Below, piece after piece: positions 11,141 through 59,845 of a DNA stretch of 64,000 bases. Made by a program: the position numbers and the translations under genes. Positions within the stretch are counted from its first letter, which is position 1, and each line of letters opens with the position of its first letter. Under the pieces are notes generated by a model. It searched no databases, was not told the origin of the DNA, and saw only the letters and a list, made by a program, of their open reading frames with translations. This stretch comes from Ereboglobus sp. PH5-10 (lineage in GTDB: Bacteria; Verrucomicrobiota; Verrucomicrobiia; Opitutales; Opitutaceae): assembly GCF_029504735.1 (NCBI RefSeq), contig NZ_JAQFIP010000006.1, forward strand, positions 1 through 64,000, in the 5' to 3' direction.

Positions 11141-15491
<4,351 letters not shown>

Positions 15492-49654: not shown

Positions 49655-49830
49655 GGACTGGCGCGATTTTTAATGCGCGCGTGTTTGCCGGCTGATTTGC
49701 GCGCGTGAATTTTTGAGGGGAACCATTGGTGGCCGGTTCGGGCTTCGCGTGCGTCATATAAGCATTGCACCCGCGCATGTGTTTTTTTGAATACACCCTC
49801 ACGCTAAACATCGGACAACAACGACCGCCA

Positions 49831-51267
49831 ATGGCCACACCAGAAATCATCGAAGCCTTTCAACGCGCCGGGCAAGGACACGTCTTTGCCTTCTACAACG
49901 AACTCGCCCCCGCCGAACGCGAACGCCTCCTCGCTGACGCCGCCGAGATCGACCTCGCCGAAATCGCGCGCCTCCACAAGACGCTCGTCGCCGACGGAGC
50001 CTCCGCCGCGCTGAACCTCGAAGGCCTCGCCCCCGCGCCCTACGAACCGCTTCCCGAAAACGGCGGCGACACCGCCGCCTGGGCCGCCGCCAAAACCGCC
50101 GGCGAGGAGGCGCTCCGCGCCGGACGCGTCGCCGCCTTCGTCGTTGCCGGCGGCCAGGGCACGCGCCTCGGCTACAACGGCCCGAAGGGCTCCTTCCCCG
50201 TCACCCCGCTCAAAAACAAAACCCTCTTCCAAGTCTTCGCCGAAAAAATCCGCGCCGCGGGCCTTCGCTACGGAAAACCCATCCACTGGTTCATCATGAC
50301 CAGCCACGCGAACCACGCCGCCACCGAGGCCTTCTTCAAGCAGCACGACTACTTCGGCCTCGCGCCCGCCCGCGTGCATCTTTTCCGCCAGGGCCGCATG
50401 CCCGCGATTTCGCCCGACGGCAAAATCCTCCTCGAAACCAAGTCCGCCATCGCCATGTCCCCCGACGGACACGGCGGCTCGCTCCGAGCCCTTCAGCGCA
50501 GCGGCGCGCTCGACATCATGCAGCGCGAAGGCATCGACATCCTCAGCTATTTCCAAGTCGACAATCCGCTCATCCGCATCATCGACCCCGCCTTCATCGG
50601 CTGGCACCTCGCCCGCCGCTCCGAAATGTCCTCGAAAATGATTCCCAAGGCCTACGCCGAGGAAAAAGTCGGACACTTCTGCACGCAAAACGACCGCACC
50701 GTCGTCATCGAATACTCCGACCTCCCGATGGAAATGCAGCGCGAAACCGATCCCGCCACCGGCAAACTCCGCTACATCGCCGGCAGCATCGCGATCCACA
50801 TTTTGGACACGCAATTCATCCGTCGCATGGCGGGGGGAGCCGCCGGCGGCCACGAAGTCGCGCTCCCCTTCCACCGCGCCGATAAAAAAATCCCCACGAT
50901 CGACGCCGACGGCAACCCCGTGAAACCCGACAAGCCCAACGGCATAAAATTCGAAATGTTCGTCTTCGACGCCGTCCCTCACGCCAAGAACGCCGTCATC
51001 ATCGAAACCCGCCGCGCCGACGATTTCAGCCCGGTGAAAAACGCCGAGGGCCTGGACTCGCCCAAAACCTGCCGCGACGACCAGCTCCGCCAGTTCGCCC
51101 GCTGGTTAAGGCAAGTCGGCGCGCCCGTCGAAACCGACGCCACCGGCCTGCCCAACATCACCGTGGAAGTGTCGCCGCTTTTTGGATACGACGAGGAAAC
51201 CTTCGCCCAATCCTGGAACCGCCTCCCCACCAAACCCGCCATCGCCGACGGACTGTATCTCGAATAA
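49831..51267 (+). CDS. UDP-sugar/UDP-N-acetylhexosamine pyrophosphorylase (UDPGP family, eukaryote-like)
   Basis: 478 residues from ATG 49831. Nucleotide-binding loop VVAGGQGTRLGYNGPKGSFPVTP, substrate segments FIMTSHANHAATEAFF and SPDGHGGSLRAL, then YFQVDNPLIRIIDPAFIGWH and a conserved late KFEMFVFDAVPHAKN. Matches the UAP1/AGX branch rather than GalU or GlmU; forms UDP-GlcNAc, UDP-Glc or a related sugar from UTP and sugar-1-phosphate. The next gene encodes the phosphosugar mutase that would supply its substrate. Confidence 0.92.
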   Translation: MATPEIIEAFQRAGQGHVFAFYNELAPAERERLLADAAEIDLAEIARLHKTLVADGASAALNLEGLAPAPYEPLPENGGDTAAWAAAKTAGEEALRAGRVAAFVVAGGQGTRLGYNGPKGSFPVTPLKNKTLFQVFAEKIRAAGLRYGKPIHWFIMTSHANHAATEAFFKQHDYFGLAPARVHLFRQGRMPAISPDGKILLETKSAIAMSPDGHGGSLRALQRSGALDIMQREGIDILSYFQVDNPLIRIIDPAFIGWHLARRSEMSSKMIPKAYAEEKVGHFCTQNDRTVVIEYSDLPMEMQRETDPATGKLRYIAGSIAIHILDTQFIRRMAGGAAGGHEVALPFHRADKKIPTIDADGNPVKPDKPNGIKFEMFVFDAVPHAKNAVIIETRRADDFSPVKNAEGLDSPKTCRDDQLRQFARWLRQVGAPVETDATGLPNITVEVSPLFGYDEETFAQSWNRLPTKPAIADGLYLE

Positions 51268-51275
51268 TTTTTTAA

Positions 51276-51350
51276 TTAACCACGGAGAGCACGGAGAAAC
51301 ACAGAGAAAAAAACTCTAACTCCGTGCCCCTCCGTGCTCTCCGTGGTTAA
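51276..51350. repeat. Palindromic repeat, family C (21-bp arms)
   Basis: Perfect 21-bp inverted arms at 51276-51296 and 51330-51350 (core CCACGGAGAGCACGGAG) separated by 33 bp that contain partial copies of the same motif. Dispersed repeats with this look occur in many Planctomycetota/Verrucomicrobiota genomes. Confidence 0.85.
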
Positions 51351-51354
51351 AACA

Positions 51355-51382
51355 ATTCCGCATTCCGAAATCCGCATTCCCA
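51355..51382 (+). repeat. Heptanucleotide repeat running into a start codon
   Basis: Consecutive heptamers ATTCCGC, ATTCCGA, AATCCGC and ATTCCCA; the last A is the first base of the phosphosugar mutase ATG. The repeat occupies the place of the ribosome-binding site. Confidence 0.8.
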
Positions 51383-53361
51383 TGAGCACTCTCAAAAAAA
51401 TCCAAGCCGCCGCCAAGTCCGGCGCGCTCCTCCCCTCCACCGCCGCCAACCTCGCCGACTGGCTCGCCGCGTCACTCCCCGAATGGGCCGTCGCCAGCAT
51501 CGGTGAGCTCGTTGAAAAACAAGCCTGGCCTGAACTCAACGACCGCTTTTACCGCTACCTCGAATTCGGCACCGGCGGCATGCGCGGACGCACCATCGGC
51601 GCCGTTCCCGCCGCCGCCGAAACCGGCAAGCTCTCGCCGCTCGGCACACCCGAGCACGCCGCCATCGGCAGCAACGTCCTCAACGACTTCACGCTCATCC
51701 GCGCCGTCATCGGCCTCTACCGCTACACGGCGAAATTCCTTGCCGCGCAAAACCGCGCCGACTCGCCCAAACTCGTCATCGCGCACGACGTGCGCCACTT
51801 CTCGCGCCACTTCTGCGAACTCGCCGCCTCCACCTGGACGCGCCTCGGCGGCACCGCCTGCATCTTCGACGGCCCGCGCTCCACGCCGCAACTCAGCTTC
51901 AGCGTCCGCCACCTCAAGGCCCACGCCGGCGTCGTCATCACCGCCAGCCACAACCCCCCGCACGACAACGGCTTCAAGGCCTACTTCGAGGACGGCGCGC
52001 AAGTCATCGCCCCGCACGACAAAGGCATCGTCGCCGAAGTCAACGCCGTCCCCCTCTCCGAACTCGGCGCCTACCTCGACAAAGACCTCGCGCGCGTCAT
52101 CACGCTCACGCCCGCCGCCGATGCCGCCTACCACGCCGTCGCCGCCGAGTCCGTCATCGACAAAACCGTTTTCAAAAAAGCGAAACTCAAAGTCGCCTTC
52201 ACCAACATCCACGGCACCGGCGCCATCGCATCCGTTCCCCTCCTCAAAGCCGCCGGCGCGCTCGTCACCCACGTCCCGCAACAAGCCGCGCAAGACCCGC
52301 GCTTCCCCACCGTCAAATCGCCCAACCCCGAAAACGCCGAGGCGCTCTCCATCGCCGTCGCCCTCGCCGAGAAAAATAAACTCGACGTCGTCCTTGCCAC
52401 CGACCCCGACTGCGACCGCATGGGCGTCGCCGTGCGCAACAAAGCCGGCAAAATGGAACTCCTCACCGGCAACCAAGTCGGCGCGCTCTTTGCCGACTAC
52501 CGCATCACGAAACTCAAACAGCTCGGCCGCATCCCGAAAAAAGGCGGGAAAAACATTGCCCTCATCAAAACCTTCGTGACGACCCCGCTCCAGGACGCCA
52601 TTGGCGCGGCCCACGGCGTGAAAGTCATCAACACCCTCACCGGCTTCAAATGGATCGCCGCAAAAATCCGACGCTACGAGGAACAACTCAAGGCGAGCCT
52701 CCTCGCCAAGGAAGGCATCGCGCTCGACTACGACCGCACCCCGCACGCCACCCGCGCCAAACTCCTCCAAAAACACAGCACCTACTTCATCTTTGGAAAC
52801 GAGGAAAGCTACGGCTACCTCGACGGCGACGACGTGCGTGACAAGGACGGCAACACCGCCTGCCTCATGTTCGCCGAACTCTGCGCCTACGTGAAATCGC
52901 GCAAACTCACCGTGCCCGAATACCTTGATGAAATCTACCGCAAGCACGGTTACTTCATGGAAGGCGTGATCAACATCTACTATGAAGGCGCGACCGGCGC
53001 GGCGAAAATCAAGCGCATCCTGGAAACCTACCGCGCGCGCCCCCCGAAAAAATTCGGCGACATCGCGGTGAAGAAATTCCAGGACTTCGGACGCGCGAAA
53101 ATCCTCGACGCCGACGGCGAGCGCATCCCCGCGCAAGACCTCTATTTCGTGACCCTCGCCAACGGCTACACCTTCGCCGCCCGCGGCAGCGGCACCGAGC
53201 CAAAAATCAAGTTCTACATCTTCGCCAACGCAAAGAATCAGAAACCGGTAAAAGGCAAAAAGAAACCCACCCTCGCCGAAACGAAAGCCGCCGTAAAAGC
53301 CGAGCTGGAACGCGTAAAAACCCTAATCGAAACCGACGCAAGAAACCGCGCGGAATCATAA
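51382..53361 (+). CDS. Phosphosugar mutase (phosphoglucomutase/phosphomannomutase, PgcA-like)
   Basis: 659 residues from ATG 51382. Alpha-D-phosphohexomutase domains: LEFGTGGMRGRTIG (domain entry), the phosphoserine loop TASHNPPHDNGFK, metal loop DPDCDRMG, sugar loop GNEESYGYLDGDDV and phosphate-binding RGSGTEPKIKF. Converts glucose-6-P and glucose-1-P. Together with the pyrophosphorylase just upstream it forms a route to nucleotide sugars. The tail (KGKKKPTLAETKAAVKAELE) is Lys/Ala-rich. No clear ribosome site; see the heptamer repeat. Confidence 0.95.
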   Translation: MSTLKKIQAAAKSGALLPSTAANLADWLAASLPEWAVASIGELVEKQAWPELNDRFYRYLEFGTGGMRGRTIGAVPAAAETGKLSPLGTPEHAAIGSNVLNDFTLIRAVIGLYRYTAKFLAAQNRADSPKLVIAHDVRHFSRHFCELAASTWTRLGGTACIFDGPRSTPQLSFSVRHLKAHAGVVITASHNPPHDNGFKAYFEDGAQVIAPHDKGIVAEVNAVPLSELGAYLDKDLARVITLTPAADAAYHAVAAESVIDKTVFKKAKLKVAFTNIHGTGAIASVPLLKAAGALVTHVPQQAAQDPRFPTVKSPNPENAEALSIAVALAEKNKLDVVLATDPDCDRMGVAVRNKAGKMELLTGNQVGALFADYRITKLKQLGRIPKKGGKNIALIKTFVTTPLQDAIGAAHGVKVINTLTGFKWIAAKIRRYEEQLKASLLAKEGIALDYDRTPHATRAKLLQKHSTYFIFGNEESYGYLDGDDVRDKDGNTACLMFAELCAYVKSRKLTVPEYLDEIYRKHGYFMEGVINIYYEGATGAAKIKRILETYRARPPKKFGDIAVKKFQDFGRAKILDADGERIPAQDLYFVTLANGYTFAARGSGTEPKIKFYIFANAKNQKPVKGKKKPTLAETKAAVKAELERVKTLIETDARNRAES

Positions 53362-53487: not shown

Positions 53488-55017
53488 TCAAAATAACGCC
53501 TGAAATTTCCTGACGCGACGCAGCGCGAACATCACGCCAACAACGCCGAGCCAGAGCAAGCTGGGCGCGCCACCGCCACCGCCGCCGGAGCTATTATTAT
53601 TATTTCCATTATTGCCGCCAACAGAGACGGTGAGCACCGCAGCGTTACTGGTAACGAACCCCAGCATGTTGCTTACGACAACCGTATAACTCCCTCCATC
53701 TGATGCCTTCACGCTTGGAATCGTGTAAGTGGCACTTGTGGCACCGAGGATAGCCTCATTGTTTTTCTTCCACTGGTAGGTGGGGGTTGGCCCCGTGGCG
53801 ACAACAGTAAAAGTCGCCGAGCGGCCTTCAAAAATGGTTTGACTGACAGGTTGGGTGGCAATTACAGGCAGACTATCCCCAGCAATATACACTGGGATGG
53901 CACTTTGACTCGGGAGCGCGGCCGCGCCCAACTGGCCGGAGACGTTACTTCCCATGCTCCAAAGTGAACCGTCAGCCTTTACAAAAAGGCTGTGATGCCA
54001 CCCGGCAGCGATAACACAACCATCGGTGGTTACTTGCACAGGGCTGTTCCGCTTCGTGGTTGTGCTGTCGCCCAATTGACCATGGATATTATTGCCCATT
54101 GCCCAGAGTGTGCCGTCGGTTTTCACAAAAAGGCTATGGCTCCACCCAGCGGCCACAAAGTCGACACCGGTGGCTATTTGCACAGCTTCGCCTTGTCCCA
54201 TGTAGGTGCCGTCACCCAACTGTCCATCGATATTCCAGCCCATGGCCCAAAGCTCGCCGTTGGTTTTTACAAAAAGGGTGTGATTCCATCCGGCGGCTAT
54301 TTCAAGAACATCGGTGGCTATTTGTTCGGGGGTGAGGAATTTGTCATCAAGGACGTCTGGATAATAGTCCGCGGAGTCGACGCCCAACTGTCCCGTGCCG
54401 TTATATCCCATTGCCCAAAGGGTGCCATCGGTTTTCAGAAACAGGCTATGATTGCCTCCGGCGGCCACGGCAACAACATTGGTTGCTACTTGCACAGGTG
54501 TGTTGTGAACATTCAGGGTGCCATCGCCCAACTGTCCGAATTCGTTGTATCCCATGGCCCAGAGAGTGCCGTCACTCTTCACATACAGACTGTGCCATCT
54601 TCCGGCGGCCACGGCAAAAACATCGGTGTCTATTTGCACGGGAGTATTGATATCCTTGGTGTCGTCGTTGCCCAATTGTCCTGTGGCGTTGAGTCCCGTT
54701 GCCCAGAGAGTGCCATCGTTTTTAACAAACAGACTGTGTTTAGATCCGGCAGCCACAGTAATAACATTGGAGGCCACTTGCACGGGAGTATTTCGCCTTG
54801 TGTAGGTGCCGTCACCTAATTCGCCTTTGTCATTATTCCCCATCGCCCAAAGGGTGCCATCATTAGTCACAAACAGGCTGTGCCCTTCGCCACCTGCTAT
54901 TTTGATAACATTGGCGGCGTTTGCCTGCGATGTGGCAACGGCGAGAATGCAAACTGTGAAAAACAAAGGTCGGAGGATGTATAACACTGGTGCTTTGGTG
55001 AATATTGGGCGTTTCAT
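53488..55017 (-). CDS. Secreted RCC1-repeat (seven-bladed) protein with Ig-like domain and sorting tail
   Basis: 509 residues from ATG 55017. Signal peptide (FFTVCILAVATSQANA), then seven RCC1 blades with the pattern LFVKxDGTLWAMGxNxxGQLGDG; seven is one complete propeller. Next is an Ig-like domain (PVIATQPVSQTIFEGRSATFTV to NAAVLTVS), a Gly/Asn linker, then SGGGGGGAPS, a TM (LLWLGVVGVMFAL) and Arg-rich RRVRK. The tail is tripartite like exosortase substrates. RCC1 in bacteria is a protein- or ligand-binding scaffold; target unknown. Paralogue of the next gene. Confidence 0.85.
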   Translation of the reverse strand: MKRPIFTKAPVLYILRPLFFTVCILAVATSQANAANVIKIAGGEGHSLFVTNDGTLWAMGNNDKGELGDGTYTRRNTPVQVASNVITVAAGSKHSLFVKNDGTLWATGLNATGQLGNDDTKDINTPVQIDTDVFAVAAGRWHSLYVKSDGTLWAMGYNEFGQLGDGTLNVHNTPVQVATNVVAVAAGGNHSLFLKTDGTLWAMGYNGTGQLGVDSADYYPDVLDDKFLTPEQIATDVLEIAAGWNHTLFVKTNGELWAMGWNIDGQLGDGTYMGQGEAVQIATGVDFVAAGWSHSLFVKTDGTLWAMGNNIHGQLGDSTTTKRNSPVQVTTDGCVIAAGWHHSLFVKADGSLWSMGSNVSGQLGAAALPSQSAIPVYIAGDSLPVIATQPVSQTIFEGRSATFTVVATGPTPTYQWKKNNEAILGATSATYTIPSVKASDGGSYTVVVSNMLGFVTSNAAVLTVSVGGNNGNNNNSSGGGGGGAPSLLWLGVVGVMFALRRVRKFQALF

Positions 55018-55142
55018 GTGTAAGTGGCGATATGGGGTGTTTTCGACTGGTGGATTGATGATTTGTTGCCGAATTTGTCCGAAAGGATTCACACGCAGGG
55101 CGTATTTTCAAGCAGGTAATAGCCCGGTCAGCCTTAGCGGGA

Positions 55143-57770
55143 CTATGCTCTCTTTGATGCGCGGCGAAGCGCGAACAGCGCGGCAACCGCAGCGAGCCAG
55201 AGCAGGCTGGGAGCGCCGCCGCCTCCGCCACCGCTGGAACTCCCGTCGTTGTTGTTATTTCCACCATTGCCACCGGAGCCGTCGCCGACGGTGAGCGTGG
55301 CAGCGAAGCTGGTAACGGAGCCTTTTGAGTTGGTGGCAACGCAACGATATTGCATGCCGCTTAGTTTGGTGGTGGCCGCGGTGATGACGAGCGTGTCGGT
55401 GGTGGCGCCACTGTAGAGAGCGGAGTCTGAAATATCCGCCCAAGACCTGCCGTTGGCCGAGGATTGCCAGCGCAATGACGGCGCAGGATCGCCCGAAGCG
55501 GCAACGGTGAATGTGACATTCCAGCCAGGCGAAACGGTCTGCGTGGCGGGTTGCGTCTTGATTGCAGGGCCGTCCCCAATGATATGAAAGGGGATGTTTG
55601 AATCCGCGCTCACGCCATCCCCCAGCTGCCCGTAGAAATTGTATCCCGTTACCCAAAGCGTGCCGTCTTTTTTAATAAACAGGCTGTGATTATATCCAGC
55701 GGCGATGTCTTTGATATCGGTGGCGACTTGCACAGGGCAGGAGCGGGCACGAACTACACGAGTTCCGTCACCCAACTGTCCGTAAAAATTGTTTCCCATA
55801 GCCCAAAGCGTGCCGTCGGTTTTTATAAATAAACTGTGATATTTTCCGGCAACCACGGCACTGACGTTGGCGACTACTGGCTCATAATAGTCGTTGTCTC
55901 TAGTGGAGACACGGCCATTGCCCAACTGGCCGTATCCGTTGTGTCCCTTAGTCCAAAGCGTGCCACTGTTTTCCAAAAACATGCTATGCAGTGATCCGGC
56001 AGCCACGGTGGAAAAGGAGAAAATAGATAATACATCTCTGGGCATATATGGAGAAATCCCCGAATTAGCCCCCAACTGGTCATAGGAATTGTCTCCCATG
56101 CTCCAGAGCGAGCCGTCATTTTTCACAAACAGACTGTGAAACTCTCCAGCGGCGATGGTGGAAACATTACTGTCCACTTGCACGGGTGTGATTTTATCCT
56201 CTTGTGTGCCATCCCCCAACTCGCCGTGGAAATTGTTACCCATGGCCCAAAGCGAACCGTCGTTTTTCACAAACAGGCTGTGATATCCGCCCCCCGCGAT
56301 GGCGATGACGCCGGTGGCCACTCGCACCGGTGTTTTTCGATCTGTGGTCGTGCCATCTCCCAATTGTCCGTAAACGTTGAGCCCCGTGGCCCAAAGTGAA
56401 CCGTCATTTTTCACATACAGGCTATGATATTTCCCCGCGGCCGCGGCGATGACGCCGGTGGCTATTCGCACAGGCGTGCTTCGATCCGTGGTCGTGCCAT
56501 CTCCCAACTGTCCGTAAAAGTTGAGCCCCATGGCCCAAAGCGTGCCGTTATCCTTCAAAAACAGGCTGTGAAGCTCACCGGCACTTGCCGCAATGACGTT
56601 GGTGGCCACTTGCGCGGGAGTGCTCCGGCCCGTGTTGGCGCCGTCCCCCAATTGGCCCGCGTCGTTATATCCCATGCCCCAAAGCGAACCGTCGCTCCTC
56701 ACAAACAGACTGTGACGACTGCCGGCAGCCACGGCAGTGACGCCGGTTGTCACTTGCACAGGCGTGCCGCGAATTTCGCCGAGGCCATCTATATTCCCCA
56801 GACGACCCGAGGTGTTGTCTCCCATGGCCCAGAGAGAGCCGTCGTTTTTTACAAACAGGCTGTGGTTGTATCCGGCGGCCACGGCAACGACACCAGTGGC
56901 TATCTGCATATTGGCAATGGAAACATCATCCATTGGTCTGCTGTATAACGAGTTGTCTTTGTAATATCCCATGCCCCAAAGCGAACCGTCGTTTTTTATA
57001 TACAGGCCGTGATATTTTCCCGCAGCCACGGCAGCGACATCGGAGGCCACTTGTTTGGGGGTAAAAGCAGTGGGCGCCTCGGAATCATCTGATATCGAAG
57101 TGCCGTCAAGCAGGTAAAACCAGTGCCCGTAGACAACGCTGTATCCCATGGTCCAAAGCGTGCCATCGGTTTTCACAAACAAGGTGTGATATTCCCCGGT
57201 GGCCACGGCCACAACGTCCGTGGCCACTTGCACCGGCAGCCTATAATCCGAAGTTGGAGCATCCCCTAATGGCCCCAAGTTGTTATATCCCATGCCCCAA
57301 AGCGAGCCGTCGTTTTTCAGAAACAGACTGTGGTTGTTTCCGGCTGTCACAGAAGAGACATTCGTAGCCACCTGCACGGGTGTTCTTTGTATCGTTGTCG
57401 TGCCATTGCCCAATTGGGCGTCATAGTTGCCGCCCATGGCCCAAAGCGTGCCGTCACTCTTCACAAACAGACTATGGTAATAGCCGGCAGCCACATCAAT
57501 AACACCGGTGGCTATTTGCACTGGCGTGCTTCGATTTACAAGATATCCGGAAGAGCCATCGCCCAGCTGCCCCTCGCTATTATCGCCCATTGCCCAAAGC
57601 ACGCCGTCATCGGTTATATACAGCGTGTGATTGTAGCCAGTGGCGACCTTGATAATTTTGGCGGCGTTCACCTGTGGCGCGGTGGCGGCCAAGGCCAGAA
57701 GGCAGATGCAGGAAGCCAGAACGTGAAGAATGGAACGCGGAGGCATTTTTGTGAAGGCGAGGAGTTTCAT
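55143..57770 (-). CDS. Secreted RCC1-repeat (14-repeat, two-propeller) protein with sorting tail
   Basis: 875 residues from ATG 57770; an upstream ATG at 58007 is rejected because it precedes the signal peptide (SILHVLASCICLLALAATAPQVNA). Fourteen RCC1 units of the LFVKNDGSLWAMGxN type: twice seven, so two tandem propellers are predicted. Some units are degenerate (LWTMGYSVVYGHW, LWGMGYYKDNSLY). Then an Ig-like domain (TQPATQTVSPGWNVTFTVAASG), Gly/Asn linker, SGGGGGGAPS, TM (LLWLAAVAALFAL) and RRASKRA. The same sorting tail as its neighbour supports a shared surface-anchoring or export route. Confidence 0.85.
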   Translation of the reverse strand: MKLLAFTKMPPRSILHVLASCICLLALAATAPQVNAAKIIKVATGYNHTLYITDDGVLWAMGDNSEGQLGDGSSGYLVNRSTPVQIATGVIDVAAGYYHSLFVKSDGTLWAMGGNYDAQLGNGTTTIQRTPVQVATNVSSVTAGNNHSLFLKNDGSLWGMGYNNLGPLGDAPTSDYRLPVQVATDVVAVATGEYHTLFVKTDGTLWTMGYSVVYGHWFYLLDGTSISDDSEAPTAFTPKQVASDVAAVAAGKYHGLYIKNDGSLWGMGYYKDNSLYSRPMDDVSIANMQIATGVVAVAAGYNHSLFVKNDGSLWAMGDNTSGRLGNIDGLGEIRGTPVQVTTGVTAVAAGSRHSLFVRSDGSLWGMGYNDAGQLGDGANTGRSTPAQVATNVIAASAGELHSLFLKDNGTLWAMGLNFYGQLGDGTTTDRSTPVRIATGVIAAAAGKYHSLYVKNDGSLWATGLNVYGQLGDGTTTDRKTPVRVATGVIAIAGGGYHSLFVKNDGSLWAMGNNFHGELGDGTQEDKITPVQVDSNVSTIAAGEFHSLFVKNDGSLWSMGDNSYDQLGANSGISPYMPRDVLSIFSFSTVAAGSLHSMFLENSGTLWTKGHNGYGQLGNGRVSTRDNDYYEPVVANVSAVVAGKYHSLFIKTDGTLWAMGNNFYGQLGDGTRVVRARSCPVQVATDIKDIAAGYNHSLFIKKDGTLWVTGYNFYGQLGDGVSADSNIPFHIIGDGPAIKTQPATQTVSPGWNVTFTVAASGDPAPSLRWQSSANGRSWADISDSALYSGATTDTLVITAATTKLSGMQYRCVATNSKGSVTSFAATLTVGDGSGGNGGNNNNDGSSSGGGGGGAPSLLWLAAVAALFALRRASKRA
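55600..57660 (-). repeat. Tandem coding repeat array (RCC1 units)
   Basis: About 14 units of roughly 150 bp, recognisable at DNA level by the recurring plus-strand string AACAGGCTGTGATA or variants and GCCCAAAGCGAACCGTC or variants. These are coding repeats, not CRISPR. Confidence 0.85.
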
Positions 57771-59086: not shown

Positions 59087-59845
59087 ATGCGCCACTTCTT
59101 CACCATTCTCAGCCACGAAATTCGCATGCTGCTGGTCAATCCCGGCACCTACATTGCGGCGGTGTTTTTTCTGGGAGTCATGGGTTCCATCTTCATCGAC
59201 CTGCTCAACCTTTACAGCGCCGTGCCGCAGGAGACATCGCCGGCGACGGTGTTTTTCCGGCTTTTCTGGGTGCCCGTTCTTTTCATGGTGCCGCTCCTCA
59301 CGATGAAAAGCATCTCCGAGGAACGGCGGCACGGAACGCTTGAGACGCTGCTCACCTCGCCCGTCTCCACCACCGAGGTCGTGCTCGGCAAATATGGCGC
59401 GGCGTATTTTCTCTACATTCTCCTTTGGGGATCGACGGCGGTCTTTTTCTACATCCTGCAAAAATTTGCCGGCGACTCGCGCTTTCTGGACGCGGGCCCG
59501 CTCATCGGCGGATACCTTTTCATCGCGGTTTCCGGACTTTTCTTTGTCGCCATCGGCATCCTTGCCAGCTCGCTTTCGCGCAACCAGGCCGTTTCCGGAT
59601 TTCTCTGCTTCACGCTCCTCGCGCTCATCCTCGGACTGAACTTTGTTTCCAACGCCGATATTTTCAGCAATGAAACACTTTCGCCCTTCAAGTCGATCGT
59701 GCAGCGCGCGCAGATATTCCAGCACCTCGATGATTTCAGTCGCGGCATCATCGACACACGCCAGCTTCTTTTCTACGTCAGCGGCGCCACGCTCACCCTC
59801 ATCCTCAGCATCCTCGGCCTTGAGGCTAAAATATTGCATAGCTAA
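59087..59845 (+). CDS. ABC-2 transporter permease (GldF-like)
   Basis: 252 residues, six TM helices (LLVNPGTYIAAVFFLGVMGSI; VLFMVPLLTMKSI; YFLYILLWGSTAVFFYIL; GYLFIAVSGLFFVAIGILAS; AVSGFLCFTLLALILGLNFV; LLFYVSGATLTLILSILGL). Contains the ABC-2 cytoplasmic-loop pattern EERRHGTLETLLTSPVSTTEVVLGKY. Partner of the upstream ATPase; 3-bp gap to the GldG-like gene indicates one operon. Confidence 0.92.
   Translation: MRHFFTILSHEIRMLLVNPGTYIAAVFFLGVMGSIFIDLLNLYSAVPQETSPATVFFRLFWVPVLFMVPLLTMKSISEERRHGTLETLLTSPVSTTEVVLGKYGAAYFLYILLWGSTAVFFYILQKFAGDSRFLDAGPLIGGYLFIAVSGLFFVAIGILASSLSRNQAVSGFLCFTLLALILGLNFVSNADIFSNETLSPFKSIVQRAQIFQHLDDFSRGIIDTRQLLFYVSGATLTLILSILGLEAKILHS

Follow-up and report, generated by a model that had tools for sequence, protein, structure and literature searches.

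A GlyGly-CTERM–like tail with an APS box in Opitutaceae, its probable rhombosortase partner and candidate polyproteins with internal tails

Two adjacent RCC1-repeat proteins of Ereboglobus sp. PH5-10 end in a tail that we read, with a probability of about 90%, as a GlyGly-CTERM–type signal cut by one clade of rhombosortases (here the FDD clade, whose enzymes share an FDDPxxxVATxAH-type motif); as we infer from sequence and by analogy, the cut protein would then be joined to a lipid and moved to the cell surface. The same tail also occurs inside long open frames, mostly ahead of TonB receptors, where it may punctuate polyproteins.

Results

Two window proteins end in a GlyGly/APS tail

The window, that is, the whole 64,000-nucleotide stretch of DNA analysed here, contains the following features.

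12148..13866, plus strand: exosortase with a fused EpsI (DUF3485) domain and Cys/Arg/His motifs (Pfam, motifs)
53488..55017, minus strand: predicted surface protein A, RCC1 repeats and Ig domain, 509 aa, with a signal-peptide-like N-terminus and a GlyGly/APS tail
53491..53592, minus strand: putative sorting tail A, SSGGGGGGAPS, hydrophobic helix and basic end RRVRK (tail-model E 1.1e-12)
55143..57770, minus strand: predicted surface protein B, RCC1 repeats and Ig domain, 875 aa, with a signal-peptide-like N-terminus and a GlyGly/APS tail
55146..55238, minus strand: putative sorting tail B, SSGGGGGGAPS, hydrophobic helix and basic end RRASKR (tail-model E 2.5e-12)

The genes for A and B are adjacent on the minus strand and likely start at ATG 55017 and ATG 57770, respectively; by eye, a signal-peptide-like stretch comes after each start, and a profile search found RCC1 repeats and one Ig domain in both proteins. 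An earlier note on this DNA had reported that the C-termini of both RCC1 proteins consist of SGGGGGGAPS followed by a hydrophobic helix and a basic end, as both translations indeed show, with GGGGGGAPS at 53560-53586 (tail A) and 55206-55232 (tail B) of the minus strand. It was also right that the motif is not classic PEP-CTERM, neither window tail having a Pro-Glu-Pro motif. Adjoining the pair on the plus strand (49765-53361) are what we take to be two sugar-nucleotide genes, for a UTP-sugar-1-phosphate uridylyltransferase and a phosphoglucomutase/phosphomannomutase.

We searched the 3.58-Mb genome of the window (G000) with a model built on 11 tails and found 18 places (E 2.5e-14 to 0.004), the 11 model-building tails included. 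When all 18 were inspected, 16 proved C-terminal and two internal (contigs C8 and C11). The presence of the tail in this genome is more than chance. As a tail finder, the bare DNA pattern was too loose: it gave 15 matches, 11 of them tails, versus 7 in a reversed control. Elsewhere, a 7.8-Mb genome in two contigs (G441) yielded 46 tail matches at E up to 0.01, weak ones included.

The tail has the anatomy of GlyGly-CTERM, namely a glycine-rich motif, a hydrophobic helix and a basic end, and its genome encodes a rhombosortase above the TIGR03902 cut-off. When 29 aligned tails were scored as isolated peptides, nine passed the GlyGly-CTERM cut-off (TIGR03501, 15.5 bits). Window tail B scored 16.4 bits as a 30-mer and 14.5 as a 50-mer, tail A remained under the cut-off at 10.0 bits, and neither full-length protein passed the GlyGly-CTERM or the MYXO-CTERM cut-off. 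In the 29 tails the glycines are followed by an APS, APG, SPS or AVS box. Such a box had been held to set the tail apart from GlyGly-CTERM; it is there, but with nine of the 29 tails passing TIGR03501, the tail is most probably, to judge from its sequence, a variant of GlyGly-CTERM with a borderline model score, and not a separate system.

The tail co-occurs with FDD-clade rhombosortases

In a class sample of 246 genomes, 26 of them from the family of the window (Opitutaceae), we detected an over-cut-off rhombosortase in 23 genomes and the tail in 12, one of which (G147) was a PEP-CTERM false match (VPEPSALLL...RRRR) and was dropped from the count. The 11 true tail genomes are all Opitutaceae and all carry an over-cut-off rhombosortase; within the family part of the sample (n = 26), the tail is present in 11 of the 17 genomes that have such an enzyme and in none of the nine that lack it.

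A family-wide test used tail model A3 (29 rows) and FDD enzyme model A4 (10 rows) on 252 Opitutaceae genomes. The FDD clade was found in 64 genomes and the tail in 65, with both in 59. Counting the 226 genomes outside the class sample, 48 have both, five the protease only, six the tail only and 167 neither (Fisher p 1.7e-36, which takes no account of relatedness). FDD scores were bimodal, with none between 202 and 113 bits among the matches listed. In shuffles within genera, the observed pair count was reached in 0 of 100000 runs for 13 genera. This shuffle covered 83 of the 252 genomes, the listed members of the 13 tabulated genera; it left out genera in which just one genome has the FDD enzyme or the tail, as well as g129 and g2, in which the tail-only genomes G256 and G300 are not accompanied by any FDD-bearing member of their genus.

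The exceptions fall on both sides. Five of the 252 genomes have the FDD enzyme without a tail detectable by model A3 (G274, G285, G352, G457 and G461), and six have the tail without the enzyme (G256, G269, G300, G375, G442 and G327). Among the latter, the tails of G256, G269 and G300 are weak matches (E above 1e-4), and the genomes of G375 and G442 are 85 and 68% complete. G327 remains an exception, with a tail at E 1.3e-6 in a genome that is 100% complete and 6% contaminated and has no FDD enzyme.

Tail gene and enzyme gene are frequently neighbours in relatives. A tail open frame immediately precedes the FDD gene in the same orientation, at a distance of 108-370 bases from the matched domain, in 30 of 43 loci, which are titled as Opitutaceae genera or as Opitutia/Opitutae or Verrucomicrobia MAGs (one partial locus of 44, L315, was dropped). 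In the family genomes, a set that overlaps the 43 loci (e.g., L282/G231), at least 35 of 65 FDD copies are within 1 kb of a tail, which in 34 of these cases is upstream on the same strand; the figure of 35 is a lower bound, based on 38 eye-picked tails that share a contig with an FDD gene among the matches listed. This adjacency does not apply to the genus of the window: the tail-model search found no tail on contig C1 of its genome, which bears the FDD gene, nor is there one in the stretch examined of L272 and L273, the two loci that are its nearest relatives among those with a name.

Rhombosortase clades and their neighbouring tails

The window's genome encodes two rhombosortases above the TIGR03902 cut-off (104.1 and 98.7 bits). 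The 98.7-bit enzyme (96.4 bits as a protein) is of the FDD type and lies outside the window, at G000:C1:152497-152964. We built a tree of 37 rhombosortases (33 above the cut-off, four below) and one distant rhomboid, the latter a third candidate of the same genome (C1:143339) that was rejected at 51.8 bits, under the cut-off, and served as the distant row only. In this tree, the 11 enzymes with the FDD motif, a group picked by motif and adjacent tails before the tree was built, form one clade (98/98), and the genomes that encode them are precisely the 11 with a true tail in the class sample. Another 11 rhombosortases, which lie beside longer proteins with GGGGGGA-type tails, make up a second clade (97/91); VIT and VWA domains were found in ten of the ten neighbours scanned. 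At L026:5556-9059 (minus strand; contig C19 of the window's genome), the second rhombosortase lies beside a protein that matches TIGR03788 under its cut-off and ends GGGGGGALEFRDVALMALFAG...RRR. Further rhombosortases adjoin GGGALDG-like tails and form no single group in the tree. Since the neighbouring tails differ by enzyme group, there seem to be several pairings of tail type and rhombosortase, in some genomes within one cell. As a side observation, rhombosortases at L123, L128, L131, L132, L135, L136 and L139 lie beside frames of 315-430 aa that end in GGGALDG-like sequences or in GGGALSLG.

The best named relative of the FDD protease belongs to an Ereboglobus MAG (92% identity). We modelled this 92%-identical Ereboglobus homologue (33-row alignment, mean pLDDT 81.5) and found GlpG as its best structural match (TM 0.69, probability 1.00, E 2e-3), no match falling below E 0.001. 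All 33 rows keep the Ser of GLS, and conservation is at least 90% at the His of AH. The features of a TIGR03902 rhombosortase are therefore all found in the FDD enzyme: a score above the cut-off, the rhomboid fold (in the homologue model) and the Ser/His pair.

Other readings of the tail

Could the tail be a plain C-terminal membrane anchor, or be cut only by a general GlpG-type rhomboid? A glycine-rich linker with a helix and a basic end could also anchor a protein, and the genome holds five more rhomboid-like matches under the TIGR03902 cut-off. However, simple anchoring would explain neither why the tail goes so tightly with one rhombosortase clade nor why the two genes adjoin in relatives, and we consider this reading very unlikely.

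The earlier note had proposed that the tail is a candidate sorting signal recognized by the EpsI-fused exosortase with a Cys/Arg/His triad that it placed at 12148-13866. The enzyme is real: the exosortase domain (PF09721, 134.9 bits) and DUF3485/EpsI (44.5 bits) are both above the Pfam cut-offs, the motifs are in place, and scores are slightly under the NCBIfam cut-offs (TIGR02602, 102.7 vs 105.55; TIGR02914, 38.6 vs 42.8). It shares a genome with the tail, about 40 kb away in the window, has the catalytic motifs, and the tail is tripartite. The tail does look like a sorting signal, but the exosortase is not its likely partner, because the distributions of the two do not match. Exosortase at large does not track the tail: exosortases occur in 208 of 246 class genomes and in all 26 family genomes of that sample, of which 11 have the tail. 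The exosortases of tail-less genomes G081, G089 and G137 lie in open frames that, at 541-706 aa, match the fused type in length (length being a proxy). PEP-CTERM is the known exosortase signal and, tallied separately from exosortase, was found in 203 of the 246 class genomes. The window's genome itself, with two exosortases, carries one clear PEP-CTERM protein; at its second exosortase locus (L028, G000 C1:293000-306000) we found a 747-aa frame ending SPEPETVALLIVAAMVAAVMWRKREQK, which is PEP-CTERM-like by text pattern only and is absent from the TIGR02595 matches. The note had also named a rhombosortase partner as the outcome that would count against it, and this is what emerged, with two such enzymes in the genome and one of their clades tracking the tail across 252 genomes. 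We regard the exosortase reading as very improbable.

Myxosortase MrtX belongs to a protease family different from rhombosortase. A reading of the tail as MYXO-CTERM, with MrtX as its protease, is the least credible, since the motif contains an invariant cysteine in the available part of the description of this system (PMC11980579) and none of the 29 tails has a Cys there; 21 of the 29 match TIGR03901 at E up to 10 and a G169 tail passes it (24.1 vs 20 bits, with others near at 19.4 and 19.8), but the remaining 28 fail, while nine pass GlyGly-CTERM.

A proposed mechanism for the tail

What would the FDD rhombosortase do with the tail? The signal peptide would take the protein across the inner membrane, where the tail helix would act as a stop-transfer sequence, leaving the glycine run on the outer and the basic end on the inner side. 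The FDD rhombosortase would cut at or just after the glycine run. The new C-terminus would probably receive an ethanolamine-containing lipid, and the protein would then go to the cell surface, both by analogy with Vibrio VesB, whose C-terminal peptide, according to the accessible part of Gadwal 2018 (PMC6219818), ends at Gly383 of SSGG and carries ethanolamine or glycerophosphoethanolamine. Cutting, cut site, lipid transfer and surface location are predicted from known systems. In the portion available of a 2026 paper (PMC13393428), the domain and its processing suffice for membrane association, and a second signal is needed to cross the outer membrane.

Internal tails mark candidate polyproteins

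The two internal tails of the window's genome belong to these features.

L025:1665-11759, minus strand (contig C8): internal tail followed by a TonB receptor part
near 59692 (contig C11): internal tail followed by a TonB receptor part

Altogether we collected 17 internal-tail junctions, with the frame continuing past the tail, in 16 open frames from eight genomes of three genera (two each in G000, G320, G321, G322 and G231, one each in G254 and G442, and five in G441); both G231 tails are within one 4994-aa frame. The junctions were drawn from selected long frames, so a frequency can be given for the window's genome only. Each internal tail (17/17) is followed by a net-positive loop and a second hydrophobic, signal-peptide-like stretch, which we defined as the most hydrophobic 15 residues within 120, a search that always returns one (mean hydropathy 1.95-2.75); by eye, the sequences past it resemble signal-peptidase sites. 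The downstream part is a TonB receptor in 13 of the 17 and another surface protein in four. The TonB assignments are based on (i) Pfam, with Plug and barrel above the cut-off in G000 C8, Plug above it in G320 2.70M, and a Plug match below it in G231 (22.0 vs 23.9); (ii) similarity to the G000 receptor, for eight more junctions; and (iii) reading alone, for G441 3.40M and 6.59M. In the four of 16 frames that were run against Pfam, He_PIG, Ig, NHL and fn3 domains recur. A pectate lyase precedes the tail in G320, the two tails of G231 flank a glycoside hydrolase 28, and a pectinesterase and a pectate lyase lie downstream of an internal tail in G321.

Are the junctions real? In four of the 17 (G442, G322 C488, G441 6.59M and G441 3.52M) we found no in-frame ATG, GTG or TTG between the tail and the second helix; therefore, CTG aside, the second part could hardly be started alone with its signal peptide. 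The other 13 have at least one possible start there. The spacer from tail to second helix measures 1-26 residues in 15 junctions; it is 49 residues in G322 C6 and 110 in G441 0.10M, and these two spacers read by eye like translated intergenic DNA, so chance may account for their open frames. G320 is assembled into a single contig and G441 into two, which counts for real junctions, and base-level errors may be the source of some open ones. One candidate, G441 C1:1589001 (L213/L266), was rejected as a junction: its tail and TonB part do not share a frame and it lacks the signal-peptide stretch, through either decay or an assembly error. Among the matches listed for receptor relatives in the 252 genomes, nine lie in frames longer than 2500 aa, and none of the other frames exceeds 1326 aa. 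Thus, most listed relatives are in ordinary frames and the fusion looks derived.

The proposed order is a large surface protein, the tail, the basic loop, a second signal peptide and then a TonB receptor or other surface protein. We lean towards reading the internal GlyGly/APS tail as punctuation, in which case rhombosortase would free part one and signal peptidase part two, giving equal amounts of both from one polyprotein. The products would be a surface polysaccharide-handling protein and its receptor.

Discussion

The tail's likely partner is corrected here from an exosortase to a specific rhombosortase clade. As far as our literature search goes, three points are new: a subtype that has an APS box and a dedicated clade of enzymes, the apparent coexistence of several enzyme-tail pairs in a single genome, and the recurrence of internal tails in front of TonB receptors; the search (mostly openly available papers, not full texts) found no earlier description of internal GlyGly-CTERM tails. 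Bacteria with two or three rhombosortases per cell seem to divide targets by tail type, and the question of specificity therefore becomes testable. If the internal tails are cut, they would represent a bacterial polyprotein route in which a surface protein and a TonB receptor are made in one translation product.

The tail shares its tripartite design with PEP-CTERM of the exosortase system and differs in that the window tails have no PEP motif and the exosortase distribution is mismatched. The likeness to GlyGly-CTERM and rhombosortase is closer in kind: a glycine run, helix and basic end, a signal-peptide-like start, co-occurrence with a TIGR03902 rhombosortase and, in some genomes, an enzyme gene adjoining its target. 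In the available part of the 2011 survey of Haft and Varghese (PMC3237569), a GlyGly-CTERM protein adjoining a rhombosortase is already listed for Opitutus terrae, the maximum is 13 GlyGly-CTERM proteins per genome, and one genome has two rhombosortases. The family described here differs in several respects: (i) the glycines are followed by an APS, APG, SPS or AVS box; (ii) several genomes have 10 to 46 tail matches, weak ones included, versus at most 13 in that part of the survey; (iii) up to three over-cut-off rhombosortases occur per genome, apparently split by tail type; (iv) several multi-tail genomes keep a tail beside the enzyme, whereas none does in the same source; and (v) tails also occur inside open frames.

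For the internal tails, the nearest parallel is Myxococcus MXAN_5598, in which, in the accessible portion of its description (PMC11980579), a MYXO-CTERM tag sits mid-ORF between a large adhesin-like part and an outer-membrane beta-barrel, and for which the authors suggest gene fusion and processing at the tag. That tag and its protease family are different, and internal tags are described there as rare, with one case discussed. Here, by contrast, 17 junctions in eight genomes of one family have a second signal-peptide-like helix, 13 lead into TonB receptors, and once two tags share a frame.
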